This document shows positions 44,724 to 64,000 of a stretch of DNA of 64,000 nucleotides, in pieces (position 1 is the first letter of the stretch; every line of letters begins with the position of its first letter). Source of the stretch: Chitinophaga niabensis (GTDB lineage: Bacteria; Bacteroidota; Bacteroidia; Chitinophagales; Chitinophagaceae); the NCBI RefSeq assembly GCF_039545795.1, contig NZ_CP154260.1, positions 2,361,001 to 2,425,000 on the forward strand. Direction: 5' to 3'. A program made the position numbers and the translations under genes. The notes beneath the pieces are model-generated. The model was not told where the DNA came from. It did not search any database and worked only from the letters and a program-made list of their open reading frames with translations.

Positions 44724-47700
44724 ATGAAGAAAGTAATTGTTTTATTGATCACAGGATTGTTGTGCGCTTTTTCCCGGGACGAAGGCAGGAGAGCGGAGGT
44801 ATTGTTCTTTGGAAAGGAGAATAAAACCCAGCATGCATCCTGGCTGGCCACCAAGTTATTCAAGAGCGGGATCAATCTCACTTATTCTGAAAAACTGGAT
44901 AACCTGGAACTATACGATGGATTGATCATTAATGCACCCTTAACACCTGTGCAGGAACAGAAAGTGAGGGCTTTTGCAGAAAGCGGCAAAGGGCTGGTAT
45001 TACTGGATGTTGCAGGCAAAAGTTACAAAGGCCGCGTATTCCGCGCTGGTAAAGCGGAGGAAAGTGATTGGAAAACCAATACCTTTCTCAACAAAATGAG
45101 GGATAGCATCCTCTGGACATTAGGAGACGGTGTAAAGCAAAAGATCCTTGCAGCCAACATTCCGGACGTGGATATCTATAACTCGGATACCATTGCGGAT
45201 TATACCCAAAGATACCTCGTTCCCAAAATGCAGGAAGCCCTGCAGCCCGCGCAATCCAATAAGCTCACACAAGTGCCCGCCGGTTTTGAGATGCAGCTAT
45301 TTGCACAGGAACCGGATATCACCAAACCCATTGCCATGGCATGGGATGAAAGAGGCCGCCTGTGGATCGTTGAAACAGTTGACTATCCTAATGCATTTAC
45401 GGAAGTAGACAGCGTGGCAAATGACCGCATCAAGATCTGTGAGGACACAGACGGTGACGGCAAAGCAGATAAGTTCACCATCTTTGCGGACAGCCTGAAC
45501 ATCCCCACCAGCATCACTTTTGCAAATGGCGGTGTGATCCTCGCCATGGCGCCTAATTTCCTGTTCCTGAAAGATACTAACGGAGATGATAAAGCAGATG
45601 TGCGTACCGTGATGTTCACCGGCTGGGCTAAACAGGATACGCATTCCGGCCCATCCAACCTGCAGTATGGTTTTGATAACAAGATCTGGGGTGTAGTGGG
45701 TTACTCCGGCTTCAACGGCACCATCGATGGTAAACCACAACGTTTTCCGCAGGGTGTATATCATTTCAAATCAGACGGAACAGACTTTGAATTCCTGGGC
45801 CGCACTTCCAATAACACCTGGGGGCTGGGCATCTCTGAAGATAACAACGTATTTATTTCCACCGCCAATAACACACACAGCGCATACTATTCACTCCCTT
45901 CCTGGCATATGCTGAGAAAGGTAGCAGGGCAGCCTTCCGTAGACCCCGTTCAGAAAATTGACGGGCACTATGATGTGCATGCCATGACGCCCAATCTCCG
46001 CCAGGTGGATGTGATGGGCGGTTTTACCTCTGCCACAGGGCATCACCTGTATACCGCACGTAACTTCCCTAAAGAATACTGGAACCGTATTGCTTTTATC
46101 TGCGAACCAACCGTCCGCCTCGTACACCAGGCCATTATGGAGCCGGATGGGGCAGGATTTAAAGAGAAAGATGGCTGGAACCTCTTAGCCAGTTCTGATG
46201 AATGGTTTGCGCCTGTACAGGCACAGGTAGGGCCTGATGGAGCAGTATGGATAGCAGACTGGTACAATTTCATCATTCAGCATAATGTGTTTGTAAAAGA
46301 ACAGGCACCTCGGGAAACCGTATTGCCTTTTACAGATCAACCGCATGGTAAAGGCAACGCTTTCGAGAGCAAATTGCGTGATTCTGTACACGGAAGGATC
46401 TACAGGATCGTACATAAAGATGCAAAGCCCTACAAACCTCTGCAACTATCCGTACAGGATGTGCCGGGGCTTGTAGCCGCTTTGTCCAACGACAACATGT
46501 TCTGGCGCATGCACGCACAACGCCTGCTGGTAGAATCCAGGGCAATAAGTGCCATCCCTTCCCTGTATAAGATCATCAACGATCAAAAGGTGGATGAAGT
46601 TGGCCTGAACAGCCCTGCTGTACATGCTTTATGGACCCTGCAGGGCCTGGGAGAACTGAATGCTGCTTCTCTGGTGGTAGTGAACAAAGCGCTGAAACAC
46701 CCTGCTGCCGGCGTACGCAAGGCGGCGCTGGAAGTATTGCCACACAACAATAAAAGCGTTGCTGCCATTTCACAAAGCGGTGTACTGAACGATCGTAACC
46801 TGCAAACAAGGCTTGCTGCATTCCGTGCGCTGGCAGATTATCCTGCTTCTCCGCAGATTGGTGCACTCCTTTACAAAGCTTCACAGGTGGCGCAGAACAG
46901 GAAGGATCCCTGGCTGGCCCGCGCGCTTTTTGCAGCGGTGATCACCCATGAACAGGGATTTTTAGCTGTAGCTGATCCCGCTTCTCCCTACGTGAAAGCA
47001 TTGCAACAGGCTACCTATTCCCTGGAGCGTGGCAGCATGCCTTTAACGCTGGATGTTACCGGCAAAGAGATCACTATAGAAGCATTGCTCAATAAAAGAG
47101 AGAACCGCGCCGGCCTGGAAGGTCCGATCGTAGCACATGGCGATAAAGAGAATGGATATGCACTGTTTGTTTCCCAGGATAAGCTTACAATGGTGCTGAA
47201 CCAGAAAGGGATTGCTTATAGCGCAACTACTACGGAGCCACTTCCTGAAAAGATGGAAATAAAGGCACAGTTGCTGAAAACAGGGCAGATCCGTATTGCC
47301 ATCAACGATGTAGTAGCTGCTACCGGCAAAGCACCCGGTTTATTCACCACAGCTTTAACTGTACCTGTACGCACAGGAGAAGATCTGCCGGAGCAACAGC
47401 GTGTGGCAGCATATTCCGGCAGGTTGAGGGGAGATCTGCGCAATGTATCGCTGTCCCTGAATAAGTCTGGCAACGAAGGCACTACCGCCGCCATTCCTTC
47501 TGTTGTAATAGATCTGAAAGTAGTGAAGGATATTATGCAGTATGATAAAAAACGTATTACGGTAAAAGCCGGGCAGCAGGTAACCATCCGACTGGAAAAC
47601 CCGGATGGCATGCAGCATAACCTGCTCATCATTAAACCCGGTACACTACCTGTTGTGGGCGCTGCGGCGGATGCCATGGTGAGAGATCCCAAAGCATCGC

Positions 47701-47876
47701 AAATGCAGTATGTGCCCAAAGTATCGCAGGTATTACATGCAACCAGGTTATTAAATCCAGGAGAAACCGTGAGCCTGAAATTCACCGCACCCAAAACACC
47801 GGGAGAATACCCCTTCGTATGTACGTTCCCGGGGCATTGGAGAGGTATGAATGGTATTATGGTCGTAACTAAATAA
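44724..47876 (+). CDS. ThuA-like/propeller dehydrogenase/HEAT/azurin fusion protein
   Basis: 1050 residues, probably periplasmic, with signal peptide KKVIVLLITGLLCAFS. The first part (about 25-120) looks like a degraded ThuA domain (VLFFGKENKTQHASWLATKL, YDGLIINAPLTP). Then a six-bladed propeller of the membrane-bound dehydrogenase (TIGR02604) type (about 175-570; VPAGFEMQLFAQEPDITKPI), HEAT-like repeats (about 590-740), a beta-sandwich region (about 760-910), and an azurin-type copper domain (about 925-1050) with ligands His965, Cys1033, His1038 and Met1042. No CxxCH heme site is present. The family often carries cytochrome c instead; here copper may take the electrons. Confidence 0.85.
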   Translation: MKKVIVLLITGLLCAFSRDEGRRAEVLFFGKENKTQHASWLATKLFKSGINLTYSEKLDNLELYDGLIINAPLTPVQEQKVRAFAESGKGLVLLDVAGKSYKGRVFRAGKAEESDWKTNTFLNKMRDSILWTLGDGVKQKILAANIPDVDIYNSDTIADYTQRYLVPKMQEALQPAQSNKLTQVPAGFEMQLFAQEPDITKPIAMAWDERGRLWIVETVDYPNAFTEVDSVANDRIKICEDTDGDGKADKFTIFADSLNIPTSITFANGGVILAMAPNFLFLKDTNGDDKADVRTVMFTGWAKQDTHSGPSNLQYGFDNKIWGVVGYSGFNGTIDGKPQRFPQGVYHFKSDGTDFEFLGRTSNNTWGLGISEDNNVFISTANNTHSAYYSLPSWHMLRKVAGQPSVDPVQKIDGHYDVHAMTPNLRQVDVMGGFTSATGHHLYTARNFPKEYWNRIAFICEPTVRLVHQAIMEPDGAGFKEKDGWNLLASSDEWFAPVQAQVGPDGAVWIADWYNFIIQHNVFVKEQAPRETVLPFTDQPHGKGNAFESKLRDSVHGRIYRIVHKDAKPYKPLQLSVQDVPGLVAALSNDNMFWRMHAQRLLVESRAISAIPSLYKIINDQKVDEVGLNSPAVHALWTLQGLGELNAASLVVVNKALKHPAAGVRKAALEVLPHNNKSVAAISQSGVLNDRNLQTRLAAFRALADYPASPQIGALLYKASQVAQNRKDPWLARALFAAVITHEQGFLAVADPASPYVKALQQATYSLERGSMPLTLDVTGKEITIEALLNKRENRAGLEGPIVAHGDKENGYALFVSQDKLTMVLNQKGIAYSATTTEPLPEKMEIKAQLLKTGQIRIAINDVVAATGKAPGLFTTALTVPVRTGEDLPEQQRVAAYSGRLRGDLRNVSLSLNKSGNEGTTAAIPSVVIDLKVVKDIMQYDKKRITVKAGQQVTIRLENPDGMQHNLLIIKPGTLPVVGAAADAMVRDPKASQMQYVPKVSQVLHATRLLNPGETVSLKFTAPKTPGEYPFVCTFPGHWRGMNGIMVVTK

Positions 47877-47889
47877 ACACCCTTCTTTT

Positions 47890-48585
47890 ATGAAACTATT
47901 GAAACTCGTTACATTATTGCTGCTGCTTGGCAGCGCTTCATTTGCCCAGATCCGCGTATTGATGGTGGGCGGTGGAAGCTCTCATGATTTTGACAAATGG
48001 TATAAAGGAGCAGATGCCGCTACGCTGGAGCGCGATGGACTTGCTACAGTTACTTATACTGACAAGCCGGAAGAGATCCTGCCGCAGCTGAAGAACATAG
48101 ATGTGCTTTTCCTTTGCAATAACCAGCCGTTGAAAGATACCCTGCTGCGCCAGGGCATCTTTGATTTTGTGAATGCAGGAAAAGGACTGATCCTCGCGCA
48201 TGCCGCACTATGGTATAACTGGCAGGACTGGCCGATGTATAACTTCAAACTGGTAAGCGGCGGCAGCCGCGGGCATGCCAGGTATGGAGAGTTTACGGTA
48301 AATATCAAGGACGCCAAACATCCTGTAACAAAAGGTGCGGTTAAGAAATTCAGCCTGAAGGATGAACGTTATTATTACATACCAGACCCTGCCGGCCCTG
48401 GTATTAAAGTACTCGCTTCCACAGAGCCGGATAGCGAAGGCAAAGTGTTCCCCTCTTTATTTGTGGTGAAACATCCCAAAGCACGTATTGTGGGTTTTGC
48501 TTTGGGGCATGATGCCGCATCACATGAATTACCGGTGTACCAGACGATTCTCCGTAACGCCGTTAAATGGACTGCTAAAAAATAA
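47890..48585 (+). CDS. ThuA-domain protein
   Basis: 231 residues, signal peptide ending GSASFAQ, hence probably periplasmic. The ThuA fold, a class I glutamine-amidotransferase-like alpha/beta domain, is clear: IRVLMVGGGSSHDFDKWYKG, IDVLFLCNNQPL, GKGLILAHAALWYNWQDWPM, GHARYGEFTVNIKDAKHPVT and GFALGHDAASHELP. ThuA proteins of rhizobia act with ThuB in 3-keto breakdown of trehalose. Here an oxidoreductase and an isomerase gene follow. It may handle a keto-sugar intermediate, but this is inference. Confidence 0.92.
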   Translation: MKLLKLVTLLLLLGSASFAQIRVLMVGGGSSHDFDKWYKGADAATLERDGLATVTYTDKPEEILPQLKNIDVLFLCNNQPLKDTLLRQGIFDFVNAGKGLILAHAALWYNWQDWPMYNFKLVSGGSRGHARYGEFTVNIKDAKHPVTKGAVKKFSLKDERYYYIPDPAGPGIKVLASTEPDSEGKVFPSLFVVKHPKARIVGFALGHDAASHELPVYQTILRNAVKWTAKK

Positions 48586-48610
48586 TCTCTAATAATAAAT
48601 CAGCATTGCA

Positions 48611-49723
48611 ATGAAACAGATCACTGTAGTTATCGTAGGCATGGGCTTTGGAAAGGAATTTATACCTATCTATCAACGTCATCCTGCCATTAAAAGAGTA
48701 GGCATTTGTACGCGTAACCGTAAAACGCTGGATGAACTGAAGGCTAAATTCAACCTTGATGAAGATTTGTTATTTACGAATTATGAGGATGTGCCTAAAC
48801 GGGAAGATGTGGATGCTATTCACATTGTAACACCTGTTCCGGAACATGCAAAGATGACGCTGGCTTCCCTGAATGCCGGCAAACATACCGCCTGCACCAT
48901 TCCCATGGCCATGACGGTGGAAGATTGCGCCGCCATTGTAGCTGCCAAAAGAAAAGCAAACAAAGTATACATGATGATGGAAACCGCACTGTATACCCGT
49001 GAGTTCCTGTATGGCCTGCACCTTGCAGAAACAGGGCAATTGGGCCGTATCCAGTTTGTACGTGGTTCACATATACAGGATATGAGTATGGACGGATGGG
49101 ATGAATACTGGAAAGGTTTTCCGCCAATGCTGAATGGCACCCATGCTATTTCGCCTTTGCTGCGTATCAATAACACTAAAGCAGAATCCGTGGTTTGCCA
49201 TGGCTCCGGCAGGTTAAGCGATGACCTCGCCAAAAGATATAATGCACCTTTTGCAGTGGAAACAGCCACTTTCACCTTAAAAAACTCAGACGTTGTAGCT
49301 GAAGCTACCCGTTCTCTTTTTGATGTGGTGCGCCAGTACCGTGAGAGCTATGATGTATACGGCACTAAAATGTCTTTCGAATGGGAGCAGTTGCAGGATG
49401 AAGAACATGTAATATTTGATGGGGGAGAGAATGCCAGCAGGATAAATGTACCCGATACGGATGCTATGCTGATACCTGAAATAGCCCACTTCACCAAACG
49501 GGAAAAAATAGACGATCCTAATCACGTATCCTTCTTACAGGGTGCAGGTCATGGAGGATCACATCCGCACCTGGTACAGGAGTTCCTGGCGGCTATTGTG
49601 GAAGGAAGAGATTCTGCCGTTGATGCCCATATCGCAGCGAATTATACCTGTGCGGGCATTTGCGCCCACGAGTCTGCCATGAACAATGGGAAACGCATCC
49701 ATATTCCTGATTTTGAAAAATAG
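48611..49723 (+). CDS. Gfo/Idh/MocA-family oxidoreductase
   Basis: 370 residues, no signal peptide, cytoplasmic. The Rossmann domain opens with ITVVIVGMGFGKEFIPIYQR (GxGxxG in the form GMGFGKE), then HIVTPVPEHAKMTLASLNAGKHT and TIPMAMTVEDC in place of the usual EKP. The C-terminal alpha/beta domain (about 125-370) has FVRGSHIQDMSMDGWDEYWK. Such enzymes oxidise or reduce sugars at C-1 to C-3 with NAD(P). ThuB, which makes 3-keto sugars, is in this family. The next gene starts 4 bases after the stop. Confidence 0.93.
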   Translation: MKQITVVIVGMGFGKEFIPIYQRHPAIKRVGICTRNRKTLDELKAKFNLDEDLLFTNYEDVPKREDVDAIHIVTPVPEHAKMTLASLNAGKHTACTIPMAMTVEDCAAIVAAKRKANKVYMMMETALYTREFLYGLHLAETGQLGRIQFVRGSHIQDMSMDGWDEYWKGFPPMLNGTHAISPLLRINNTKAESVVCHGSGRLSDDLAKRYNAPFAVETATFTLKNSDVVAEATRSLFDVVRQYRESYDVYGTKMSFEWEQLQDEEHVIFDGGENASRINVPDTDAMLIPEIAHFTKREKIDDPNHVSFLQGAGHGGSHPHLVQEFLAAIVEGRDSAVDAHIAANYTCAGICAHESAMNNGKRIHIPDFEK

Positions 49724-49727
49724 AGCT

Positions 49728-50576
49728 ATGCTGTTTGGCGCGAGTACATTTATATGGGTTTCTCCTTTTTCCACTGCTTCTTTTCACCTGCTGCCAAAGA
49801 TCAAAGATGCCGGTTACGACATCATTGAAGTAGCGGTAGAAGATGCAGCGATCATTGACTGGGATGAATTGATGGTAAGAGCAAAAGACCTTGGCCTGAA
49901 GATCACTATCAGTGGTGCTTTTGGGGAGGACAGGGATATCTCCGGTACAGATTCCCGCATCCGCTACCAGGGCCTCCGGTATATTGCCGATTGCGTAGCC
50001 ATTGCCGCCAAAGTAGGCAGCCCCGTGTTTAGCGGGCCTGTTTATTCAGCTGTTGGTAAAACAAGGATCGTTTCCCCGGAGCAAAAGAAACAGGAAAGGG
50101 AATGGTGCATTGAGGGCTTAAAAGAGTCCGCCAAAGTAGCCGCAGATCATGGTGTGGTAATTGGCCTGGAACCGCTCAACCGCTTTGAAACGGATATGAT
50201 CAATACCGTGGACCAGGCGCTGGAGCTGGTGAAAGAAGTGAATAACCCGCACCTGCAGGTCTCGCTGGATACTTTTCATGCGAATATTGAAGAAAAGAAT
50301 ATACCCGCCGCTATCAGAAGGATTGGTAAAGACCTGCTTTGCCATATCCAGGGAAATGAAAGCGACCGGGGTACGCCGGGCACTGGTCATCTGGACTGGG
50401 CCGGCATCAAAGAAGCGCTGGTAGAAATAGGGTACGAAGGGGCTATTGTGCTGGAAACATTCGGCGCACCCTCCGAAGCCCTTGCAAAAGCAGCCTGCAT
50501 CTGGCGGCCGCTTGCCAATAGTGCAGATGAGCTGGCGATTGAAGGCGCGAAGTTTTACAGAGCAATGTATTCGTGA
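49728..50576 (+). CDS. Sugar isomerase/epimerase, D-tagatose 3-epimerase-like
   Basis: 282 residues from ATG 49728 (MLFGASTFIWVSPF), which lies 4 bases after the oxidoreductase stop; an upstream in-frame ATG would overlap that gene. TIM barrel of the xylose-isomerase-like AP_endonuclease_2 family. Metal ligands fit the 3-epimerase pattern: Glu in VIGLEPLNRFETD, Asp in VSLDTFHANIEEK, His in DLLCHIQGNESDRGTPG and Glu in AIVLETFG. It probably interconverts keto-sugar intermediates made by the neighbouring oxidoreductase. It is the last gene of the sugar locus, and a terminator follows. Confidence 0.92.
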   Translation: MLFGASTFIWVSPFSTASFHLLPKIKDAGYDIIEVAVEDAAIIDWDELMVRAKDLGLKITISGAFGEDRDISGTDSRIRYQGLRYIADCVAIAAKVGSPVFSGPVYSAVGKTRIVSPEQKKQEREWCIEGLKESAKVAADHGVVIGLEPLNRFETDMINTVDQALELVKEVNNPHLQVSLDTFHANIEEKNIPAAIRRIGKDLLCHIQGNESDRGTPGTGHLDWAGIKEALVEIGYEGAIVLETFGAPSEALAKAACIWRPLANSADELAIEGAKFYRAMYS

Positions 50577-50598
50577 ATCAATAGTCAATTAGAATGAA

Positions 50599-50626
50599 AA
50601 AAGCCTCCGGTTCTCCGGAGGCTTTT
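50599..50626. terminator. Bidirectional terminator at the end of the sugar locus
   Basis: AAAAGCCTCCGG (50599-50610), loop TTCT, CCGGAGGCTTTT (50615-50626): perfect 12-bp stem ending both the sugar locus and the convergent DUF2207 gene. Confidence 0.93.
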
Positions 50627-50668
50627 CTTATAGGTTGGCATCATCGGCGCGCTTGTTATAGCAGGCAA

Positions 50669-52567
50669 TTACCAGCCGCCACCACCGCCGCCGCCGCCAC
50701 CACCACCGGAAGATCCGCTGCTGCTGCTTCCTGAACTCCAACTGGAGCTGCCGCTACTGCCACTGCTGCTGCCTGAGCTGCTGGAAGGAGGTGTAGGATC
50801 AATCTGCGCATGTGATACGGAAGAAACAAAAGCAGTGGAGAAACGGTTGTAATTATGGATCTCGTTACCTGCATACCATTCCGGTGTATAGTTGGCCTGC
50901 GTTAGTACGTCCTTGAATTTTTCTCCCCATGCGTTTTCCAGTCCTAAGGCAATGGCATAAGGCAATAGCCTTTCAAACAGTTCCGGTGTTTTTTCTGGTG
51001 GCGTAAGCATGTCCAGCCTGTCTTCCTCCGCTGTTTCCATATACATTTTAAATCCTTCGATCGCTGCTGATTTTTCCGCACCCAAAGGAGTAGGGGCTTT
51101 GATCAGATAGATGTATGCTACATATCCTGTTACAACCGCACCAAGGAACACCAGCGATAACGGGGAAAATCCCGCCAGGAACTGTACCAGGAAGATCAAT
51201 GGTGCAAACAGGAATAATCCGCCCCCTATCAGAAATGCATAGCCGGCGCAACCTTCCTTTATCATTTTTACACCGGTAAAGAGCAGCACGCTTCCTACGG
51301 CCAGAAAAGGTACAATGAAAAGAATGGGGAATGCATCTTCTCCATTGCTGAGGAACAGGTAGAGTGCCAGAACTGCCAGTAACATTAAACCACCATATAC
51401 AATAAGCCTGATATTGGAGCGGTAATAGGATTTGATATTGAATTGCCCGGTAATGGAGCTGGTGAACGCCGAACGCGCTGCAGAAAACTTTGCATGGTTC
51501 TTATTATTCACCCTGATATTCTCTTTGTTGCGCAATAATTCTGAATAGATCTTCTGCTCTTCTACCGGCAGGATGGTGTGTGCCGTTTTGCCTTTTTCAA
51601 TCACGTAATCCTCTTTGTCTTCATCTTTGATGTGGATCACTTTTTTCACCGCCATGTCTACCAGTGCTGCCGTAAATGACTTGTTGCCGGTCTGCCGGGT
51701 ATAGAGGTAAGCGATCGCAGCAGGAGAGAGGTTATCCGGTGGCTCGAATGTTGGTACTACCACAGGTTTGCGCGGGTCTACACCATATCTGCGCCAGGTA
51801 TAAAAGAAGAAGCCGAACAGGATGGCCAGGAAGGGTATTTCTTTGTAGTCATTGAGAAAACCTAATACACGCTCACCAATGCCGGGCGGCGGTGGTCTTT
51901 TTATCAATCCCATGGGAAAAGCTACCGCAATGGTGAAACCATCTCCGGGGTTCAACACCTGGTTGCAGGTGAAGGTTGGTTTACCCAACGAGTCATATGC
52001 TACAGAACAGTTTGTTTCCTTTGAACCAAACGGGCCGGTATAACAGGCGGTGCGTTTGATGCCGGCGCCGGAAGGTAAGGTTACAGATGCAGAAGCTTTG
52101 ATAATAGGCAGGCTCCAGTCGTTCCCGGTTACATTCCAGTAAAGTTCATCAAAGTCCTCAAAGAACCCGATGTGGCCCCTGGTTTCATAGTGAATGGCAT
52201 ATTCGTATACGCCGGGATCCAGGTCAACATCTTTATCACCGATCCTGATCTTTGTGTTTTCGCCTTCATTTAACGTTACATAAGGTTCCTGCTGGCCGTT
52301 TTTAGTGACCTCATGAACGGTAATGTCTACCCGTTTTTTATGGCCATAAATATCTTTCCGGTAAACGGGGATGGTTCTGAAAATGCCTTTCCTGATCTGA
52401 TCCCCTGCAGCAAATACTTTGATATGCTCCGTGATCGTAATGAGGCCGGTAGTATCGATAGTGATGGCTGCATGAAAGGAGAGGATCTCTTCTGCATGGT
52501 ATTCCTCCTGGGCCTGCGCACAAGCAGTGGCAGCAAGCATTGCCAGGAATAAAAAGAATTTCTTCAT
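50669..52567 (-). CDS. DUF2207-domain membrane protein
   Basis: About 632 residues from MKKFFLFLAM at 52567, which starts the signal peptide ending CAQAQEE. The DUF2207 N-terminal beta domain (about 20-230; YHAEEILSFHAAITIDTTGL, ITEHIKVFAAGDQIRKGIFR) is extracytoplasmic, followed by membrane helices near 245-265, 400-420, 427-447 and 457-500 in the C-terminal half. The C-terminus is low-complexity Ser/Gly ending in eleven Gly and Trp. It directly follows lemA (7 bases). DUF2207 and LemA genes occur together widely; the function of the pair is unknown. Confidence 0.92.
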   Translation of the reverse strand: MKKFFLFLAMLAATACAQAQEEYHAEEILSFHAAITIDTTGLITITEHIKVFAAGDQIRKGIFRTIPVYRKDIYGHKKRVDITVHEVTKNGQQEPYVTLNEGENTKIRIGDKDVDLDPGVYEYAIHYETRGHIGFFEDFDELYWNVTGNDWSLPIIKASASVTLPSGAGIKRTACYTGPFGSKETNCSVAYDSLGKPTFTCNQVLNPGDGFTIAVAFPMGLIKRPPPPGIGERVLGFLNDYKEIPFLAILFGFFFYTWRRYGVDPRKPVVVPTFEPPDNLSPAAIAYLYTRQTGNKSFTAALVDMAVKKVIHIKDEDKEDYVIEKGKTAHTILPVEEQKIYSELLRNKENIRVNNKNHAKFSAARSAFTSSITGQFNIKSYYRSNIRLIVYGGLMLLAVLALYLFLSNGEDAFPILFIVPFLAVGSVLLFTGVKMIKEGCAGYAFLIGGGLFLFAPLIFLVQFLAGFSPLSLVFLGAVVTGYVAYIYLIKAPTPLGAEKSAAIEGFKMYMETAEEDRLDMLTPPEKTPELFERLLPYAIALGLENAWGEKFKDVLTQANYTPEWYAGNEIHNYNRFSTAFVSSVSHAQIDPTPPSSSSGSSSGSSGSSSWSSGSSSSGSSGGGGGGGGGGGW

Positions 52568-52574
52568 AAGCGGG

Positions 52575-53135
52575 TTATTGGAAAGAAACAAGGGGTCTTT
52601 CCCGATGGGAGTTATCTTCTATTTCAAAGAATTCGCTTTTCTCAAACTTGAACATGCCGGCAACAATATTGGAAGGGAAACTTTCTACGAGGATGTTATT
52701 CTCCCTCACCGTGCCATTATAGTAGCGGCGGGCAGATTCCAGGTTATTCTCTATGGCAGACAGTTCTGCCTGTAATTCCCGGAAGTTTTCACTGGCTTTC
52801 AGATCAGGATAATTCTCCGCTATGGCAAATAAGGAACCCAGCGCACGGGTGAGCCCGCTTTCAGCCTGTGCTTTTTCAGCGGTGGAGCCTGCATTCATGG
52901 AAGCAGTACGGTAACGTGTCACTTCCTCCAGGGTGCTCTTTTCATGTGCAGCATATCCTTTTACTGTTTCCACCAGGTTCGGCAGCAGGTCGTACCTCTT
53001 TTTGAGGCTAACGTCAATGCCGCTCCAGGCTTCCTTTACAAGCGTTCTTTTACTAACCAGCTTGTTGTAGAGAGATACTGCCCATAGCCCGATGATAACA
53101 ACAACGGCCAGTATGACAATTGTAGAAGTACCCAT
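52575..53135 (-). CDS. lemA: LemA-family membrane protein
   Basis: 186 residues. One N-terminal membrane helix (TSTIVILAVVVIIGLWAVSLYNK) is followed by a long helical hairpin region with the family motif VKEAWSGIDVSLKKRYDLLPNLVETVKGYAAHE and AENYPDLKASENFRELQAEL, and the end SIENNLESARRYYNGTVREN. LemA proteins are found in many bacteria. Role uncertain; co-transcribed with the DUF2207 gene. Confidence 0.95.
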   Translation of the reverse strand: MGTSTIVILAVVVIIGLWAVSLYNKLVSKRTLVKEAWSGIDVSLKKRYDLLPNLVETVKGYAAHEKSTLEEVTRYRTASMNAGSTAEKAQAESGLTRALGSLFAIAENYPDLKASENFRELQAELSAIENNLESARRYYNGTVRENNILVESFPSNIVAGMFKFEKSEFFEIEDNSHRERPLVSFQ

Positions 53136-53213
53136 AGTGAAAATTTACCGGGAAATTAATCGAAATATTTGATTCGCGGTACCCGAATTCATTTCCCTAC
53201 ATTTGTGGATCGT

Positions 53214-54239
53214 ATGTCTTTATTCATCACATCACTTAATTCAGGGAGTAACGGAAACTGCTACTATGTCGGAAACGACAACGAGGCCGTGCTGATCGAT
53301 GCAGGAATATCCTGCCGCGAAACGGAGCGGCGCATGCAGCGGCTGGGGCTGTCCATGCAAAAGGTGAAGGCGGTGTTTATTTCACATGAACATATAGACC
53401 ATATTCGCGGGGTGACCGTGCTTTCCAATAAATACCAGCTGCCGGTTTACATTACGTCAGATACATTAAAACATGGCGGCCTGCAATTAAAGGACCACCT
53501 GGTTTCACCTTTTAGTATACAGGACCCCGTTAATATTGGGAAACTCAGTGTGAAGGCGTTCGCCAAAGAACACGATGCCGCAGAACCACATAGCTTTACC
53601 ATCACACAGGAAGCTGTCACCGTAGGCGTATTCACGGATATCGGCGTGCCCTGTAATAACCTCGTTCATCATTTCCGGCAATGCCATGCCGCATTCCTGG
53701 AAGCAAATTATGATGAGGTGATGTTGGAAAAAGGCAGGTATCCTGTTTTTCTGAAGAACCGGATCCGCGGAGGCAAAGGCCACTTGTCCAACACACAGGC
53801 ACTCACACTTTTTACCAATTGCCGCCCGGAATTTATGAGCCATCTGTTATTATCCCATCTTTCCAGGGATAATAATGATCCGCAGCTGGTGCAGTCTTTG
53901 TTCGATCAGCATGCAAATGGTACGCAGATCATTGTGGCTTCCCGCTACCAGGAAACAGCGGTATACCATGTTACGGGCGCTCCGGTGGAAAGGGCGGAAC
54001 CTGTTACCCTCCAGGTTACCAGTGCTCCGGTGGAAAGGTCGGAACCTGTTACCCTCCAGGTTACCAATGCTCCGGTGGAAAGGGTGGAACCTGTTACCCT
54101 CCAGGTTACCAGTGCCCCGGTGGAAAAGTCGGTACCCATTGCCAACAGGATAAAAGCCCTCCCGGAATCCAAGGCCAACCGCAGCCGCAGATCAGCATCC
54201 CGGAACGATGGTATTTCACAATTAGAATTATTTCATTAA
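53214..54239 (+). CDS. YycJ-type metallo-beta-lactamase nuclease with repeat tail
   Basis: 341 residues from ATG 53214 (MSLFITSLNSGSNGNC). The metal site motif HEHIDH is at 58-63 (VFISHEHIDHIRGVTV), later FTDIGVPCNNLVHHF, EANYDEVM and MSHLLLSHLSRDNN match the YycJ/WalJ subfamily, which are DNA 5'-3' exonucleases. The core ends near residue 260, as usual for the family. A 45-bp repeat adds about 60 residues (four units of VTxAPVERxEPVTLQ), then a basic stretch (NRSRRSASRNDG) and the very end SQLELFH. QLELF fits the consensus of beta-clamp-binding peptides. Confidence 0.9.
   Translation: MSLFITSLNSGSNGNCYYVGNDNEAVLIDAGISCRETERRMQRLGLSMQKVKAVFISHEHIDHIRGVTVLSNKYQLPVYITSDTLKHGGLQLKDHLVSPFSIQDPVNIGKLSVKAFAKEHDAAEPHSFTITQEAVTVGVFTDIGVPCNNLVHHFRQCHAAFLEANYDEVMLEKGRYPVFLKNRIRGGKGHLSNTQALTLFTNCRPEFMSHLLLSHLSRDNNDPQLVQSLFDQHANGTQIIVASRYQETAVYHVTGAPVERAEPVTLQVTSAPVERSEPVTLQVTNAPVERVEPVTLQVTSAPVEKSVPIANRIKALPESKANRSRRSASRNDGISQLELFH
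53970..54149 (+). repeat. 45-bp coding tandem repeat in the nuclease tail
   Basis: Units at 53970-54014, 54015-54059, 54060-54104 are nearly identical; a fourth (54105-54149) diverges in its second half. Each encodes 15 residues. Because 45 is a multiple of 3, other frames and the opposite strand stay open here, so the neighbouring open frames are artefacts. Confidence 0.95.
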
Positions 54240-54254
54240 TTTAGTCCCATAAAC

Positions 54255-54350
54255 AGGAAATGGTGTCTTCCTGACCCAACCGCTTCTCCGAAGCTAATGG
54301 CGCCTACAAATTAACACTGGCCCCTGCCGGTTAAAAAAGTTATTTGTAGG
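54255..54350 (+). promoter_or_regulatory. Fluoride riboswitch (crcB motif)
   Basis: The aptamer fits the known fluoride-sensing fold. Stem AGGAA/TTCCT (54255-54259 with 54268-54272) brackets ATGGTGTC. A second hairpin GCTTC/GAAGC (54282-54294) follows ACC. The conserved TAATGGCGCCTAC ends the aptamer (54295-54307). GGTGTC (54262-54267) can pair with GGCGCC (54299-54304) as the pseudoknot. The aptamer end CCTACAAATTAAC (54303-54315) also pairs, with one bulge, with GTTATTTGTAGG (54339-54350) that touches the start codon at 54352. Fluoride binding would free the start, so control is probably at translation. Confidence 0.92.
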
Positions 54351-54351
54351 T

Positions 54352-55608
54352 ATGAAAAAATCCTTTGAACATTTCTTAATCGCACGTCATCTCCTGTACT
54401 GGACGGTATTGGCAATTCCTGTATCCATAGTAGCCGGCTCACTCGTAGCCTTATTCCTCTGGTTGCTGGACCTGGTTACCCGGTTCCGCTGGGAACATGA
54501 ATGGTTACTTTATCTATTGCCCCTTGCAGGGATCGCGATCCATTTCCTTTACAAGTTATGGGGCAAAAATGCAGAAGCAGGGAATAACCTCATTATGGAG
54601 GAGATCCATGAACCGGGTGGTGGTGTACCGGCCCGCATGGCACCATTGGTACTTATCACCACATTGATCACGCATTTATTCGGAGGTTCTGCCGGAAGGG
54701 AAGGAACCGCAGTGCAGATCGGCGGCAGCATGGCGCAGTTATTAGGCAAATGGTTCCGCCTCTCTAAAGAAGATATCCGCATTATACTGATGATGGGTAT
54801 TGCCGCAGGCTTCGGTGCTGTATTTGGCACCCCGCTCACCGGTGCCATCTTTGCCCTGGAAGTGATCGCAACCGGAAGGATCAAATACAACGCCCTGGTG
54901 CCCTGCCTCATCGCCAGTTTGTTTGCAGACATTGTTTGCAGTGCCTGGGGCATTCATCATACCATCTACCATATCAATAGCACAGCGTTTAGCCGCTTTG
55001 ATTATGTATTAATAGCAAAAGTGGTGCTGGCGGGTGTAGCCTTTGGACTGGCCGGTTACTTATTTGCAGAAGCTTCTCATGGGGTGAAAACATTGGCCAA
55101 CCGCAGCATTAAAAGCCATAAATGGATGATCCCCGTAGTGGGAGGAGTAATGATCATAGCCCTCACGTTTATTGCAGGGACCAACGATTATCTCGGTCTG
55201 GGCGTTACCGCTAAGTCGCCGGATGGCATTTCTATCGTGAATGCTTTTCAAAAAAACGGCGTTACCTCCTGGAGCTGGCTCTGGAAGCTGGTATTTACGG
55301 CGGTTACTTTGGGGATGGGATTTAAAGGGGGAGAAGTAACACCCCTGTTCTTCATAGGTGCAGCACTGGGCAACACCCTGGCCATTTTAACCGGTGCACC
55401 GGTAGATCTCTTTGCCGGCTTAGGTTTTATTGCCGTATTCGCCGCTGCTACCAATACCCCCATCGCCTGTACGATCATGGGAGCAGAACTATTCGGCACG
55501 GATCATATCCTGTATTTCGCCATCGCCTGCTTCACTGCCTATTATTTCAGCGGGCGTTCAGGGATCTATTCCGCACAGCGGGTAGCCGTTACCAAACTGG
55601 GAAAATAA
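54352..55608 (+). CDS. CLC-type fluoride/proton antiporter (CLC-F)
   Basis: 418 residues, CLC channel/antiporter fold with about 10-12 membrane helices and no CBS domains. The canonical GSGIP ion-binding motif is replaced by GNNLI (77-81), and GREGP by GREGT (115-119, with gating Glu117), the changes described for CLC-F antiporters that expel fluoride in exchange for protons. [17 protein letters not shown] and [19 protein letters not shown] are further conserved segments. The fluoride riboswitch directly upstream supports this over a chloride transporter. It protects the cell from fluoride. Confidence 0.93.
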
Positions 55609-55669
55609 CTTAATAATAGGGTAACATTACATGTAGGATATTTACAGATTCCCAATAAAATCCGGATAA

Positions 55670-58117
55670 ATGAAACACCTGGCATCCTTTATTTTTTGTT
55701 TAAGCACACTAGTGACAACAGCTCAGCAGGTTAAGCTGGATGATCAATTGAACCAGGGCCGGGTAAGGCTTCCTAACGGATGGCATCTTTCTCCCGCCGG
55801 CCGTTCCCTGAAACTGGGAGATCTGCCTTTGAACATGGCGGTTTCTCCGTCAAAGAAATGGATAGCGGTGACCAATAACGGGCAAAGTGTGCAAAGCATT
55901 CAGTTAATCGATACTAAAACCGAAACCGTGCTGGATAATGTGGTGATTCCCAAATCATGGTATGGCCTTAAATTCAGCGCCAATGAAAAATACATCTATG
56001 CTTCCGGTGGCAATGATAACAGGATACTTCAGTACGAGATCATTCAACATAAACTGCGTTTAAAAGACAGTATTATCCTGGGTGAAAAGTGGCCAGTGAA
56101 AATATCTCCGGCAGGAATTGAAATAGATGATGCGGCGCAGTTGATGTATGTGGTGACGAAAGAAGATAATGCGTTGTACGTGATCAGTCTCATTGATAAA
56201 AAGACCCTGTACCGGCAGGAACTGGGTGCCGAAGCCTATACCTGCTTACTATCCCCCAAAAAGAATGAGCTATATATTTCTTTGTGGGGAGGAGATAAGC
56301 TATTGGTACTTGATACCAGGCAGAGAAAGACCATTGCCACTATAGCCGTAGGCGATAATCCGAATGAACTGCTGCTTAATAAAAAGGGCAATTATTTGTT
56401 TGTTGCCAATGCGAATGATAATAGTGTTTCCGTGATAGATATAAGATCACGTAAAATAAAGGAGGTGCTGAATGCAGCATTATACCCTGATGCTCCTGCT
56501 GGCTCAACTTCTAACGGACTTGCATTGTCCACTAATGAAAAGACCTTATATGTAGCTAATGCAGACAATAATTGCCTCGCTGTATTTGATGTGGCGGAGC
56601 CGGGGCGAAGCAGATCAAAGGGGTTTATACCAGTAGGATGGTATCCCACCAACATTAAAGTGATCGGTAAAAGGATCTTTGTTTCCAATGGAAAAGGCTT
56701 TTCTTCTTTTGCAAATCCTAACGGCCCCAATCCTGTGAAGCCACAGCAAAGGGTCACCCGCCATGAGGGCGATGCTGTTGCACCAAAGCAGGTGGAATAT
56801 ATCGGTGGCCTGCTAAAAGGCACGATGTCTGTGATCGATGAACCGTCAGATGCAGACCTGGCAATATATTCCGGGGCTGTGTATATGAACACGCCTTATT
56901 CTAAGGAAAAAGAAACCGTTTCTTCCGGTGAGGCAGGTAATCCCATTCCTATGAAGATCGGTGATCCCTCACCTATAAAACATGTTTTCTATGTCATCAA
57001 GGAAAACAGAACGTATGACCAGGTATTGGGTGATATGCCGGAAGGGAACGGCGATACCAGCTTAGTGTTGTTCGGAGAAAAGATCACCCCCAATCAACAT
57101 AAGCTGGCCCGGGAGTTTGTGCTGCTGGACAATTTTTATGTAGATGGAGAAGTAAGTGCAGACGGGCATAACTGGAGTACTTCAGCACATGCCACAGATT
57201 TCCTGGAAAAGAACTGGCCAACCAGTTATGGTGGCCGTGGAGGTACTTACCCGGGGGAAGGGCAGCGTGAAGTAGCGAACCCCAAAAAAGGCTTTATCTG
57301 GGACTATTGTAAACGTGCCGGTGTGAGCTATCGCACTTACGGAGAGTTCGCGGATGATGGGAAGCCCAATATCCCTGCACTGGCAGGGCATTTTTGTCCT
57401 TATTACACGAGTTATGGCCTTACTACGAGAGATACTACCCGTTTTCACCAATGGAAGCAGGAATTTGATTCACTGGTGGCTGTTAATGCGCTGCCGCAGT
57501 TCAATACGGTCCGTTTTGGCAATAACCATACAGAAGGCCTGAAAAAAGGCCGTCCTACACCTTTTGCACATGTTGCGGATAACGACTGGGCACTGGGTAT
57601 GTTCATAGAACATTTATCAAAGAGCAGTGTATGGAAAGAAAGTGTTGTATTTGTAGTGGAAGATGATGCGCAGAATGGACCGGACCATGTGGATGCACAT
57701 CGTACAACTGCATTTGTGGCCGGCCCCTATGTTAAAAGAGGGTTTGTGGATCATACTATGTATTCCACTTCTTCCATGTTAAGAACAATGGAACTCATTC
57801 TGGGATTGCCACCGATGAGCCAGTACGACGCAGCTGCCACTCCCATGTGGAAAAGTTTTATGGCAATACCTGACCTGGCGCCTTTCAGGGCGCTTAAGGC
57901 AAATGTGGACCTCAATGAGCGCAATACTGCTACTACAGCCAGTGCAAAACTAAGTGAGCAATTCGATTTCAGTAAAGAAGACCGGATACCAGACCTGCTC
58001 TTTAGTGAGGTGATCTGGAAGGCGGTGAAAGGAGAGTGGAGCGAAATGCCCGCTCCCCGGCGCAGCGCCTTTTTAAAGAATACCGGAAAAGAGGAGGACG
58101 AAGATGAAGACGATTAA
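55670..58117 (+). CDS. YncE-like propeller/alkaline-phosphatase-superfamily phosphoesterase fusion
   Basis: 815 residues, signal peptide ending VTTAQQ, hence periplasmic or surface. The N-terminal seven-bladed propeller (about 40-370) has YVTN repeats (KTIATIAVGDNPNELLLNKK, FVANANDNSVSVIDI). The C-terminal phosphoesterase domain (about 430-770) starts HVFYVIKENRTYDQVLGDMP and has DGHNWSTSAHATDFLEKNWP and SVVFVVEDDAQNGPDHVDAH, the metal-binding phosphatase-fold segments. Enzyme substrate unknown. The end KEEDEDEDD is very acidic. Its 3' end overlaps the convergent barrel gene by 4 bases. Confidence 0.92.
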   Translation: MKHLASFIFCLSTLVTTAQQVKLDDQLNQGRVRLPNGWHLSPAGRSLKLGDLPLNMAVSPSKKWIAVTNNGQSVQSIQLIDTKTETVLDNVVIPKSWYGLKFSANEKYIYASGGNDNRILQYEIIQHKLRLKDSIILGEKWPVKISPAGIEIDDAAQLMYVVTKEDNALYVISLIDKKTLYRQELGAEAYTCLLSPKKNELYISLWGGDKLLVLDTRQRKTIATIAVGDNPNELLLNKKGNYLFVANANDNSVSVIDIRSRKIKEVLNAALYPDAPAGSTSNGLALSTNEKTLYVANADNNCLAVFDVAEPGRSRSKGFIPVGWYPTNIKVIGKRIFVSNGKGFSSFANPNGPNPVKPQQRVTRHEGDAVAPKQVEYIGGLLKGTMSVIDEPSDADLAIYSGAVYMNTPYSKEKETVSSGEAGNPIPMKIGDPSPIKHVFYVIKENRTYDQVLGDMPEGNGDTSLVLFGEKITPNQHKLAREFVLLDNFYVDGEVSADGHNWSTSAHATDFLEKNWPTSYGGRGGTYPGEGQREVANPKKGFIWDYCKRAGVSYRTYGEFADDGKPNIPALAGHFCPYYTSYGLTTRDTTRFHQWKQEFDSLVAVNALPQFNTVRFGNNHTEGLKKGRPTPFAHVADNDWALGMFIEHLSKSSVWKESVVFVVEDDAQNGPDHVDAHRTTAFVAGPYVKRGFVDHTMYSTSSMLRTMELILGLPPMSQYDAAATPMWKSFMAIPDLAPFRALKANVDLNERNTATTASAKLSEQFDFSKEDRIPDLLFSEVIWKAVKGEWSEMPAPRRSAFLKNTGKEEDEDEDD

Positions 58118-58659
58118 TAAAGTATATAGCCGAATTTAAGCCCTATGGCCGGCGTTGCGCTTCCTTCTTCAGCGCGACTGTCGTACCGGAAGGAATAGCC
58201 CAGCAACAGCTCAAAACTGAATCGTTTGCCTATGCCGCGTTGCATACCCCAGGAAGGAGTGATGGCAACAGCCGGGTTATTGTACATATTATCGTAAGCA
58301 ATAGGGGTAAAGCTATAACCCAGTTCCACACTCAGAAAGTTCCCGGAGTTATTGGTGATGGATTTGCCCTTACTCACCCTTTTATCCAGGTTATAATAAT
58401 GGCGGCCTTCTGCGGAGAGCGTAGGCGCTAATGTATAACCGAAACTTTCACCCGCAAAGCTACTATAGGCATAAAAGAAACCATAGTTCAGGCTGGCTTC
58501 AAAGTTTAAGGAAGTACGCCGGGAGATGCTTTTTTCATAATTAACAGAAGCACCGATTAAGAGAAGATTTGCTTTTACCTGGGAAGGCTTCAGGCCTTCC
58601 TGGCTAATGGCCTGCAGAGCGATAAGGATAAATAGCTGCAATAAAATGATACGTTTCAA
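58114..58659 (-). CDS. Outer-membrane beta-barrel protein, unknown function
   Basis: 181 residues. Signal peptide ending AISQEG; then strand-like segments with alternating polarity (SQVKANLLLIGASVNYEKSI, LNFEASLNYGFFYAYS, SFELLLGYSFRYDSRA) and a terminal aromatic IGLKFGYILY. It fits a small 8-stranded barrel. No family recognised. Converges with the propeller/phosphoesterase gene. Confidence 0.8.
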   Translation of the reverse strand: MKRIILLQLFILIALQAISQEGLKPSQVKANLLLIGASVNYEKSISRRTSLNFEASLNYGFFYAYSSFAGESFGYTLAPTLSAEGRHYYNLDKRVSKGKSITNNSGNFLSVELGYSFTPIAYDNMYNNPAVAITPSWGMQRGIGKRFSFELLLGYSFRYDSRAEEGSATPAIGLKFGYILY

Positions 58660-58815
58660 GCGTTGAATTTTAATAAAGGTATAGGCGAAGGGTGTTTAAA
58701 TGCCAAAATAGCGATTGAAATGTAAGAAAAGTATCCTGAAATGCGATTTCTCCATCAATTCCCCGATTGTGCGGTTGAGAACTCTTCCTTATCTTGCCCT
58801 TCTGATAAACTGATC

Positions 58816-61269
58816 ATGCAAATTAAAAAGTACTTATTACTGGCTATTGCGCTGGTAGGTGCCTGCTCCACACAGGCCCAGCAAAAATCAAGACTAAATA
58901 ACGGTTGGGAATTCCTGCGGTCGGACCTGGGAGGCATCTGGGAAGCCGTACGCCCTGTGGGCAAAGGCGCACCGGAGGCATCTCCTTTATGGGAAGCGAT
59001 CTCTCTTCCGCATTGCGTTAATGCAAACGATTGCGTAGATCCGGATCTCAACTATTACCAGGGCCCCGCATGGTACCGTACACAGCTGAAGATCAGCAAC
59101 CCTTATGCAAACGGCAGAACGCTCCTTCACTTTGAAGGTGCCGGTCAGAAAACGGACGTGTATGTATACACGACCAAAGTTGGCAGCCATATCGGCGGTT
59201 ATGATGAATGGACGGTAGACATCACGGATGCAGTAGCTGCTTTCCGGAAGACCCCTGCCTATAAGCAGCAGTTCAAGGAAAATATTCCCATATCCATCAG
59301 AACAGATAATAGCCGTGACCTGGAAATGATCCCTTCCAGCTTATCTGACTTTAATGTATATGGCGGCATTTACCGTTACCTGAACCTGGTGTATGCACCG
59401 GCTTTGTCTATTCAAAGACTGCAGGTGGTAACGGAAGCATCAGGTAATATGGCGGTGGAAGTTTATCCGTACAACAAGTACGGATTCAATAAAGCGTTGT
59501 TTAAAACGGTATTGAAAGACCCCGCCGGTAAAGTAATTGATCAGGCTTCCTATGAGATTGATGGCCTGGACATCAAAGCGCATGTACCTGTTGCTGCATT
59601 CAAAGTAAAAGAGCCCAAATTATGGAGCACCACATCTCCTGCATTGTACACGGTGGAAACATCGGTTACTGCAGGGAATGGTACCTATACACAGATCGAA
59701 AAGATTGGTTTTCGCTCTTTTAAATTCGAAAAGCAGGGACCTTTCTTCCTGAACGGCCAAAGACTTTTGCTGAATGGTACCCACCGTCATGAAGATCATG
59801 CAGGTGTAGCTGCTGCTATGACCGATGATATGATGCGCAGGGAAATGATCCTCATGAAAGACATGGGCGTGAATTTCATCCGCCTGGGCCATTACCAACA
59901 ATCCCGCACTATCCTGCAGTTGTGCGATAGTCTTGGTATTGTAGTATGGGAAGAGATCCCCTGGTGCCGTGGCGGACTGGGTGGCAAAACCTATAAGGAG
60001 CAGGCTAAACGTATGCTCACGAATATGATCGAGCAACATCACAATCATCCTTCCGTGATCATCTGGGGCCTCGGGAATGAGAACGACTGGCCCGGCGACT
60101 TCCCTGAATTCGATAAAGAAAAGATTCGCACGTTCATGAAAGAACTGAATGATCTTTCTCATAAACTGGATCCTTCCCGCAAAACGGCCATCCGCCGTTG
60201 TGATTTCTGTAAGGATATTGTAGATGTATATTCTCCCTCTATCTGGGCAGGCTGGTACCGCGGTATTTACACAGAGTATAAACAAACATCGGAAGACGAA
60301 TTCAAAAAAGTAGATCGCTTCCTGCACGTAGAGTGGGGTGGTGACAGCCATGCAGGCCGCCATTCTGAAACACCGGATAAAGCGCTGCAGAACGTCAAAA
60401 CAGGCAATGGTACAGATGAACGTGCAGGTGATGCTTCTTTATATGGTGGCGCAGCACGCGTATCAAAAGACGGAGACTGGAGTGAAAGTTATATCTGCAA
60501 TCTCATGGACTGGCACCTGAAAGAACAGGAAACCATGCCATGGCTCACAGGTACCGCGCAATGGGTGTTCAAAGATTTCTCTACACCTATACGGCCGGAT
60601 AACCCTGTGCCCTATATGAATCAGAAAGGCCTGGTGGAAAGAGACCTCACACCCAAGGATGCATATTATGTGTTTCAGTCGTATTGGGCAACCAAACCCA
60701 TGGCACGTATCTATGGCCATTCCTGGCCGGTAAGATGGGGGAGTGAAGGAGAAAGTAAAATGGTGAAAGTATATTCCAATTGTGAAGAAGCAGAGTTGTT
60801 TGTAAACGGAAAGAGCCTTGGTAAAAAGAAACGCAACAGCCAGGATTTCCCTGCAGCAGGTTTACGCTGGGAGGTAGTGTTCAATAAAGGAAAGAACGAA
60901 GTGAAAGTAGTGGCGCGCAAAGGAAAAGAAACTACACAGGACCAGGTTTCTTTTGAATACCAAACAGCGAAATGGAGCAAACCTGCAAAGATGACCCTGC
61001 AGCAGATTGCATTGGAGAAAGGTATTGCCACACTGGAAGTAAAAGTATTTGACAGTAATAATGTGTATTGCCCCGATGCTGCTAACTGGGTAAGATTCTC
61101 GCTGGCAGGAGATGGTAAACTGATAGACAACCAGGGTACTTCCTCCGGATCCAGATTTGTGCAGTTATACAGCGGTAGAGCCATCATTCGTGTGGATACT
61201 AAAAATGGAAAGAACGTAGCTGCGGTGAAAAGTGAAGGCATGGAAACAGTTACATTAAACTTAAAATAA
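58816..61269 (+). CDS. Glycoside hydrolase family 2 protein
   Basis: 817 residues from ATG 58816 (MQIKKYLLLAIALVGACSTQ); a possible lipobox LVGAC suggests a lipoprotein. Domains in order: jelly-roll sugar-binding domain (to about 190), immunoglobulin-like domain (to about 295), TIM barrel with acid/base Glu422 (IIWGLGNENDWPGD) and nucleophile Glu506 (FLHVEWGGDSHAGR), then a C-terminal beta domain (about 620-817, DUF4982-like). Beta-galactosidase is the usual label; related enzymes act on other beta-glycosides. No susC/D partner adjoins it. Confidence 0.92.
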   Translation: MQIKKYLLLAIALVGACSTQAQQKSRLNNGWEFLRSDLGGIWEAVRPVGKGAPEASPLWEAISLPHCVNANDCVDPDLNYYQGPAWYRTQLKISNPYANGRTLLHFEGAGQKTDVYVYTTKVGSHIGGYDEWTVDITDAVAAFRKTPAYKQQFKENIPISIRTDNSRDLEMIPSSLSDFNVYGGIYRYLNLVYAPALSIQRLQVVTEASGNMAVEVYPYNKYGFNKALFKTVLKDPAGKVIDQASYEIDGLDIKAHVPVAAFKVKEPKLWSTTSPALYTVETSVTAGNGTYTQIEKIGFRSFKFEKQGPFFLNGQRLLLNGTHRHEDHAGVAAAMTDDMMRREMILMKDMGVNFIRLGHYQQSRTILQLCDSLGIVVWEEIPWCRGGLGGKTYKEQAKRMLTNMIEQHHNHPSVIIWGLGNENDWPGDFPEFDKEKIRTFMKELNDLSHKLDPSRKTAIRRCDFCKDIVDVYSPSIWAGWYRGIYTEYKQTSEDEFKKVDRFLHVEWGGDSHAGRHSETPDKALQNVKTGNGTDERAGDASLYGGAARVSKDGDWSESYICNLMDWHLKEQETMPWLTGTAQWVFKDFSTPIRPDNPVPYMNQKGLVERDLTPKDAYYVFQSYWATKPMARIYGHSWPVRWGSEGESKMVKVYSNCEEAELFVNGKSLGKKKRNSQDFPAAGLRWEVVFNKGKNEVKVVARKGKETTQDQVSFEYQTAKWSKPAKMTLQQIALEKGIATLEVKVFDSNNVYCPDAANWVRFSLAGDGKLIDNQGTSSGSRFVQLYSGRAIIRVDTKNGKNVAAVKSEGMETVTLNLK

Positions 61270-61296
61270 AAAGATGACGGTGTTGGGTTAATACCC

Positions 61297-61351
61297 CTCA
61301 TATCTACTAATTTAATTAGCTAGGTTTGCTAAATAAATTAGTAGATATGAG
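61297..61351 (+). promoter_or_regulatory. 18-bp perfect inverted repeat over the umuD-like start
   Basis: CTCATATCTACTAATTTA (61297-61314) and its exact complement (61334-61351) flank a 19-bp spacer that itself contains TTAGC...GCTAA. The right arm covers the ATG at 61347-61349. As DNA it is a strong operator candidate; as RNA it would form a long hairpin that hides the start codon. Confidence 0.7.
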
Positions 61352-61811: not shown

Positions 61812-61970
61812 AAAATACCGTAACCTTTAGTTTTGCATTTAACCTCAATACTTATGAGCACTGAAAGGCATTAAGCTATAATGTTAAAATTACCCCAGGC
61901 AGAAACATCCCGGCTCATATTTTGTTACTGTGTTATAGACCATGCTTCTGTAACCAAAACAATGTTTTAT

Positions 61971-62957: not shown

Positions 62958-62962
62958 CCGCA

Positions 62963-63847: not shown

Positions 63848-64000
63848 GGTCAGCCCAAATTACAATAAAAAAATCCATGAGGGAAGCTTTCATGGTAAGT
63901 TTTTGCTGGTGTAGTAAAATGTCGCCAATAAGATAATCCATCTTTTCAATCAGAATCTCTATTGAAGCGCCGGGTTTATCTTTCAATATTTGTACTCAGT

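Follow-up and report, generated by a model that had tools for sequence, protein, structure and literature searches.

Results

A YycJ/WalJ orthologue outside the walRK locus

The window, the whole 64,000-nucleotide stretch of the Chitinophaga niabensis genome analysed here, encodes a hydrolase whose catalytic core is followed by a long C-terminal tail (Table 1). The start of the gene is placed at the ATG at 53214, which gives a protein of 341 residues; a longer frame from a TTG at 53169 is possible. We take the neighbouring genes to be LemA-like, DUF2207-like and ClC-like. The LemA-like gene (52575-53135, minus strand) lies directly upstream in divergent orientation, and the presumably DUF2207-like gene (50669-52591, minus strand), also upstream, encodes a large membrane protein with a Ser/Gly-rich C-terminus.

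Orthology was assessed using the YycJ of Priestia megaterium, which was identified by its place after yycF-walK-yycH-yycI, an order that also precedes YycJ in Latilactobacillus curvatus. The top match of this protein in the C. niabensis genome was the window gene (1.9e-34, 32% identity over 229 columns), followed by a locus at 2.2e-12. The HEHxDHI, HDAAEP, TDxG, ExNxD and HLSxDNN stretches are common to the window protein and the YycJ/WalJ (VicX) of Bacillota, and metal-ligand and signature residues including H58, H60, D62, H63, H120, D142 and H215 are invariant among 72 aligned relatives. Because it is the best own-genome match of a syntenic YycJ and retains these residues, the window gene is a YycJ/WalJ orthologue, and an earlier sequence-only reading of this DNA had named it correctly. 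Unlike the Priestia and Latilactobacillus genes, it lies outside any walRK-yycHI locus (ORFs at 45000-64000 were inspected); that location was seen in two Bacilli records and is no requirement for YycJ orthology. The two Bacilli proteins also differ from the window protein in having no such tail, as do 120 Clostridia-type homologues.

None of the NCBIfam matches listed (25 of 26) reached its cut-off and none was named YycJ. PF23023 gave no match for the window protein at 1e-3, although its homologues carry precomputed PF23023 labels. A Foldseek search with the predicted structure placed YhfI, Apyc1 and PhnP near the model (Apyc1 and PhnP at 14-20% identity), with no entry named YycJ among the 50 matches listed. 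Solved relatives were considered as a clue to the substrate and set aside as uninformative, since sequence (three weak matches) and fold led only to other metallo-beta-lactamase proteins. Separately, a distant YycJ relative from another class in our phylum sample (L136:961-2304, genome G144) occurs as a fusion, in one open frame with a preceding RNase_T exonuclease domain (PF00929), an arrangement that agrees with a role of this metallo-beta-lactamase group in DNA processing.

Table 1. Features of the yycJ gene in the window, and ORFs of the same genome with a comparable C-terminus
Feature	Position	Strand	Remarks
YycJ/WalJ orthologue, 341 aa (P0001)	53214..54239	+	metallo-beta-lactamase-fold hydrolase with C-terminal tail; PF12706, PF00753
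YycJ folded catalytic core, residues 1-254	53214..53975	+	AlphaFold2; last strand E251-254
45-bp tandem repeat, 15-residue unit APVERxEPVTLQVTS	53979..54126	+	3.3 copies, 94% matches; lengthens linker
Distal linker with basic block (LPESKANRSRRSASRNDGIS)	54159..54218	+	similar in nearest relatives L090, L091, P0002-P0007
Putative beta-clamp-binding motif QLELF, one residue (H) before stop	54219..54233	+	consensus QL[S/D]LF, QxxLF or Q-phi-x-[L/M]-[F/L]
YycJ			one of ten own-genome ORFs with terminal Q[LF]x[LF]F
DNA polymerase IV	own genome		C-terminal QLSLF; one of ten ORFs
DUF763 protein, PF05559, function unknown (L352)	G000:C1:4778714-4778731	-	ends QLRLF
PA0069-family radical SAM protein, NF033668 (L355)	G000:C1:5814664-5814681	-	ends QLSLF
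269-aa ORF with hydrophobic segments			ends QLKLFS; one of ten
L362, L373, L374, L384, L389			ORFs of 101-190 aa; membrane or spurious frames by eye; five of ten

The tail is predicted to be disordered and ends in a short motif

The gene closes with CAA TTA GAA TTA TTT CAT TAA (54219-54239, plus strand), which reads Q-L-E-L-F-H-stop and completes the SQLELFH C-terminus that the sequence-only reading had picked out. The description of the tail in that reading as flexible, repeat-rich and basic also holds, given the 45-bp repeat, an NRSRRSASR block and predicted disorder. AlphaFold2 pLDDT means over ten residues are 88-98 for the core up to residue 250 and 39-52 for residues 261-341, the latter being a prediction of disorder and not a measurement. 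The motif is thereby predicted to sit in an accessible, flexible end.

The repeat lengthens the linker of the window protein; different linkers are present in its nearest relatives. Within its clade, about 25 terminal residues are similar (roughly PESxxNRxRRxxxxNxxISQLELF, with changes), while the linker preceding them differs. A terminal QLELF, QLELFH or QLELFQ is shared by the orthologues from the three window-clade genomes (L089, L090 and L091) and by the six nearest proteins (P0002-P0007), on tails that vary in length and sequence. An end kept while the tail varies, the pattern that the sequence-only reading had proposed to look for, is thus found among close homologues, and most sampled Chitinophagaceae and Sphingobacteriaceae orthologues also carry a motif.

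The motif recurs across orthologues from related genera

To classify C-termini, the last 12 residues of each orthologue were scored as containing a five-residue form (QxxLF or the relaxed Qxx[LMI][FWY]), a six-residue form (Qxx[LMF]x[FL]), or neither. In the family sample, 145 of 194 genomes searched had a match at E 0.001; 124 of these were strong orthologues, and 21 with weak matches only were left out. Four of the strong orthologues were from Chitinophaga. The remaining 120, from other genera of Chitinophagaceae and all with distinct cores, comprised 98 with the five-residue form (85 QxxLF and 13 relaxed), 13 with the six-residue form and nine with neither. When the last 20 residues are considered, eight of the 120 have neither form (L269 has QLSLF 16 residues before its end), and either form occurs in one or more members of 60 of the 63 genera represented.

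Four further samples were scored in the same way. Named genomes, for which 80 of 187 relatives were kept, gave 47 five-residue, 10 six-residue and 23 motif-less proteins; by NCBI rank, these numbers (five/six/none) are 15/2/12 for Chitinophagaceae, 15/8/5 for Sphingobacteriaceae, 3/0/4 for Cytophagales, 0/0/1 for Bacteroidales and 14/0/1 for unranked assemblies. Across 79 genomes of the genus Chitinophaga, our own included, 28 proteins have the five-residue form, 17 the six-residue form and 34 neither. The relatives agree with placement of the window in this genus, with Chitinophaga supplying 13 of the 16 best named loci (L009-L024). The 120 homologous proteins listed (of 7999) divide into 73, 6 and 41. 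A match at E 0.001 was found in 101 of the 247 genomes of the phylum sample, mostly to distant paralogues that did not enter the YycJ counts; its 11 strong orthologues besides our own (two of which are also in the family sample) include seven with the five-residue form, two with the six-residue form and two with neither. The family, named, genus, protein and phylum sets overlap and their counts are not additive.

Under the strict revised clamp consensus (Q-phi-x-[L/M]-[F/L] or Q-phi-x-[L/M]-x-[F/L]; PMC13254535), the counts fall to 80 of 120 in the family sample (81 in the last 20 residues), 43 of 80 named genomes and 13 of 79 Chitinophaga genomes, and we therefore treat the six-residue and non-aliphatic forms as weaker evidence. 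Overall, these comparisons point to a terminal motif that is conserved under selection, with frequent loss in Chitinophaga.

The motif extends less far than the enzyme. It is absent from distant YycJ relatives (L130-L138) and from the YycJ proteins of Priestia, Latilactobacillus and Bacteroides finegoldii, and L130-L138 and B. finegoldii indicate that Bacteroidota YycJ proteins do not all have it. A further comparison started from L132, a YycJ belonging to a different class of the phylum: its 120 nearest homologues, of which the few with names are from Clostridia, all lack every form of the motif. This rules out the motif as a general feature of all YycJ proteins.

Control sequences and coding diversity argue against chance

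The window gene does have a repetitive tail, so the terminal motif could in principle be a chance or low-complexity residue of such a tail. Against this, only two of 340 control ORFs flanking yycJ in 80 named loci end in the five-residue form (both QxxLF; by eye, one is DinB-like, ending QLSLFEGLL (L083), and the other helicase-like), compared with 98 of 120 orthologues (Fisher p = 2e-75, with sequences treated as independent though they are not). Among 1643 internal 12-residue segments of 80 YycJ proteins, none has QxxLF and one has the relaxed form. The six-residue form is looser, occurring in one of 340 control ORFs and nine of 1643 internal segments. The 31 rows that end exactly in QLSLF encode it with 29 distinct 15-mers that use six Leu and six Ser codons, which argues for conservation at the protein level or repeated gain and not for recent copying of DNA. 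Together with the spread across 60 of 63 genera, these controls rule out a chance origin as far as we can judge, and we give it almost no credence.

A total of 172 distinct rows have the five-residue form in their last 20 residues. As the choice of rows fixed motif positions 1, 4 and 5, free variation is confined to positions 2 and 3 and to how far the motif lies from the end. Position 2 is L in 110 rows and position 3 is S in 99; 125 rows have no residue after the motif and 33 have one. The commonest residues thus spell QLSLF, with QLELF-H-stop in the window protein. The preferences for L and S agree with the published clamp consensus, given as QL[S/D]LF or QxxLF (PMC12309361). The 15 columns preceding the motif are near random (entropy 3.4-3.9 bits), and the linker between core and motif ranges from 10 to 84 residues in 150 measurable rows (median 21), the window protein having the longest. 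A conserved structural C-terminal strand was ruled out, given this range and the predicted disorder of the tail.

The motif has been lost and regained repeatedly

A FastTree tree of 266 core sequences was used to trace the motif, scoring either form in the last 20 residues. Parsimony requires at least 19 changes of state, 13-14 losses and 5-6 gains, suggesting that a tether of this kind would be inessential and regainable. Losses are largest in two places, Chitinophaga and a group that includes Spirosoma and some members of Pedobacter. The 34 motif-less proteins among 79 Chitinophaga genomes likewise suggest that it is dispensable; 24 of them end at residue 251-266, just past the core, and six end in xxLF with the first Gln replaced. 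One of the 34 (L235, genome G064) has a broken yycJ frame in a 65%-complete genome, maybe an assembly error. Proteins that stop just after the core, together with repeated loss, suggest that the tether would be an accessory outside catalysis.

The sliding clamp and other candidate clients in the same genome

C. niabensis has its own DnaN (255.9 bits), of which residues 1-369 (of 372) can be aligned with 8dt6, the best match among solved clamps. Its TDAHRL and C-terminal VMPLLL segments resemble what we take to be the peptide-pocket segments of the clamp. The genome's MutL has QQSLFP at ORF residue 525, presumably near the position of the motif in E. coli MutL. No clear match was found in the C-terminal part of its DnaE1 by the patterns used.

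DNA encoding Q[LF]x[LF]F with a stop-like codon behind it occurs at 34 places in the genome when that codon follows directly and at 33 when one more codon intervenes, compared with 23 and 32 places, respectively, for a reversed-pattern control; the pattern is thus hardly more frequent in the DNA than its control, and most places are not gene ends. Ten ORFs of at least 100 aa (stop to stop) end in this pattern with at most one residue after it (Table 1). A terminal QxxLF is present in 119 of the 120 DUF763 homologues listed, which are 72-97% identical overall, making their shared terminus less independent evidence than that of YycJ. These sequences make the DUF763 proteins of the phylum a second candidate for a clamp partner. 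In a different genome, that of Mucilaginibacter oryzae, a 671-aa ORF near yycJ (L030, helicase-like by eye) ends in QVSLF and is possibly another clamp client.

The conserved end of YycJ could also be a short linear motif for another partner, such as a protease degron or another hub, that only looks clamp-like. Its repeated loss and regain would suit such a motif, as short motifs behave in this way, but the L and S preferences at the free positions match the clamp consensus, and the same terminus is found in the genome's own DNA polymerase IV, of a family of known clamp clients, as it is in the DinB-like control L083. We consider another partner improbable.

Discussion

The best reading of these sequence comparisons is, in our view, a lineage-specific clamp tether on YycJ that works like the eukaryotic EXO1-PCNA pair, and we hold it to be probable. 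On this reading, the tail would act as a flexible tether with a bacterial clamp-binding motif at its end. By docking into the hydrophobic pocket of DnaN, the sliding clamp, this motif would keep the nuclease at replication forks, or at clamps that remain on newly synthesised DNA. The comparisons thus support the interpretation given in the sequence-only reading, which had seen a possible beta-clamp-binding motif here. We have good confidence that the tail binds DnaN. Docking on the clamp is strongly suggested, and a mismatch-repair pathway is what we infer from work on Bacillus.

EXO1 has 5'-3' polarity and a role in mismatch repair, and its fold, like that of RecBCD, is unrelated to the YycJ fold. 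In the parts of the literature covered here, EXO1 resembles a tethered YycJ in being an exonuclease bound to a sliding clamp by a short peptide (cited in PMC13254535), but its motif is of the PIP type and the likeness would be convergent. The nuclease RecBCD of E. coli is likewise held on the clamp through a motif of the same class (QVEMEF), but this one is internal to RecB and the setting is double-strand-break repair (PMC13254535). PolC, DinB/Pol IV and some transposases carry the same type of pentapeptide at the C-terminus (PMC12309361, PMC4549789); the C-terminal QLSLF peptide of B. subtilis PolC binds DnaN with a KD of 3.8 uM (PMC12309361), and C-terminal QLxLF ends are known in transposases (PMC4549789). 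These are polymerases and transposases, whereas YycJ is a nuclease.

An exonuclease activity and a mismatch-repair role for YycJ in this organism, as extrapolated from Bacillus work cited by other papers, stand at about even chances. We know of no nuclease assay of a Bacteroidota YycJ. In the parts of the sources available, the YycJ of B. anthracis is described as an exonuclease that digests dsDNA 5'-3' in mismatch repair (PMC4801191), and degradation of the nicked strand in MutH-less mismatch repair is ascribed to the exonuclease WalJ (PMC8034640). MutH is confined to a subset of Gammaproteobacteria, the MutL endonuclease of B. subtilis is clamp-dependent, and the helicase acting in strand removal in MutH-less bacteria is unclear (PMC8034640). 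The reports on YycJ and WalJ speak against a reading in which YycJ, though bound to the clamp through its tail, does not serve as the excision nuclease of mismatch repair and would instead have a different clamp-linked function (processing of Okazaki fragments or forks, trimming of gaps or ends) or act on another substrate. That reading is a serious competitor, if somewhat less than evenly likely. It draws on the nucleotide phosphodiesterases PhnP and Apyc1, which share the fold and were found with YhfI near our model where no listed match bore the name YycJ; on the walJ null of B. subtilis, which like recJ showed increased survival of replication arrest (PMC9836290); and on the ORFs at 45000-64000, among which no mismatch-repair gene was recognised by eye.

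If the tethered YycJ does act in mismatch repair, the most likely step is that MutL nicks the new strand and the clamp-tethered YycJ then degrades that strand 5'-3' past the mismatch. If a long leash anchored YycJ in one clamp pocket, beside clamp-licensed MutL, excision would start at the MutL nick on the new strand. In its widest form, the proposal is that Bacteroidota convergently built a counterpart of EXO1-PCNA, in which a QLxLF-tailed YycJ with an evolvable leash would confine MutH-less mismatch-repair excision to clamp-marked new DNA, and in which the same peptide code would mark DUF763 and PA0069-family radical SAM clients. We offer this tentatively, at slightly under even odds.

Both the enzyme and the motif are known; their combination was not met in the literature searched. 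We found no report of YycJ together with 'clamp' or 'sliding clamp' in the open-licence PMC literature, which was the scope of the search, and the portions covered name no YycJ-type nuclease as a clamp client. The term 'clamp-binding' is absent from the available part of PMC8034640.

A C-terminal QLxLF suggests a simple rule for scanning genomes for further clients such as DUF763. If the reading proposed here is true, a nuclease of another family joins the clamp interactome, which a 2026 paper, in the part covered, calls incompletely defined (PMC13254535), and a clamp tether on a WalJ-type exonuclease would provide a physical link between excision and the replisome.
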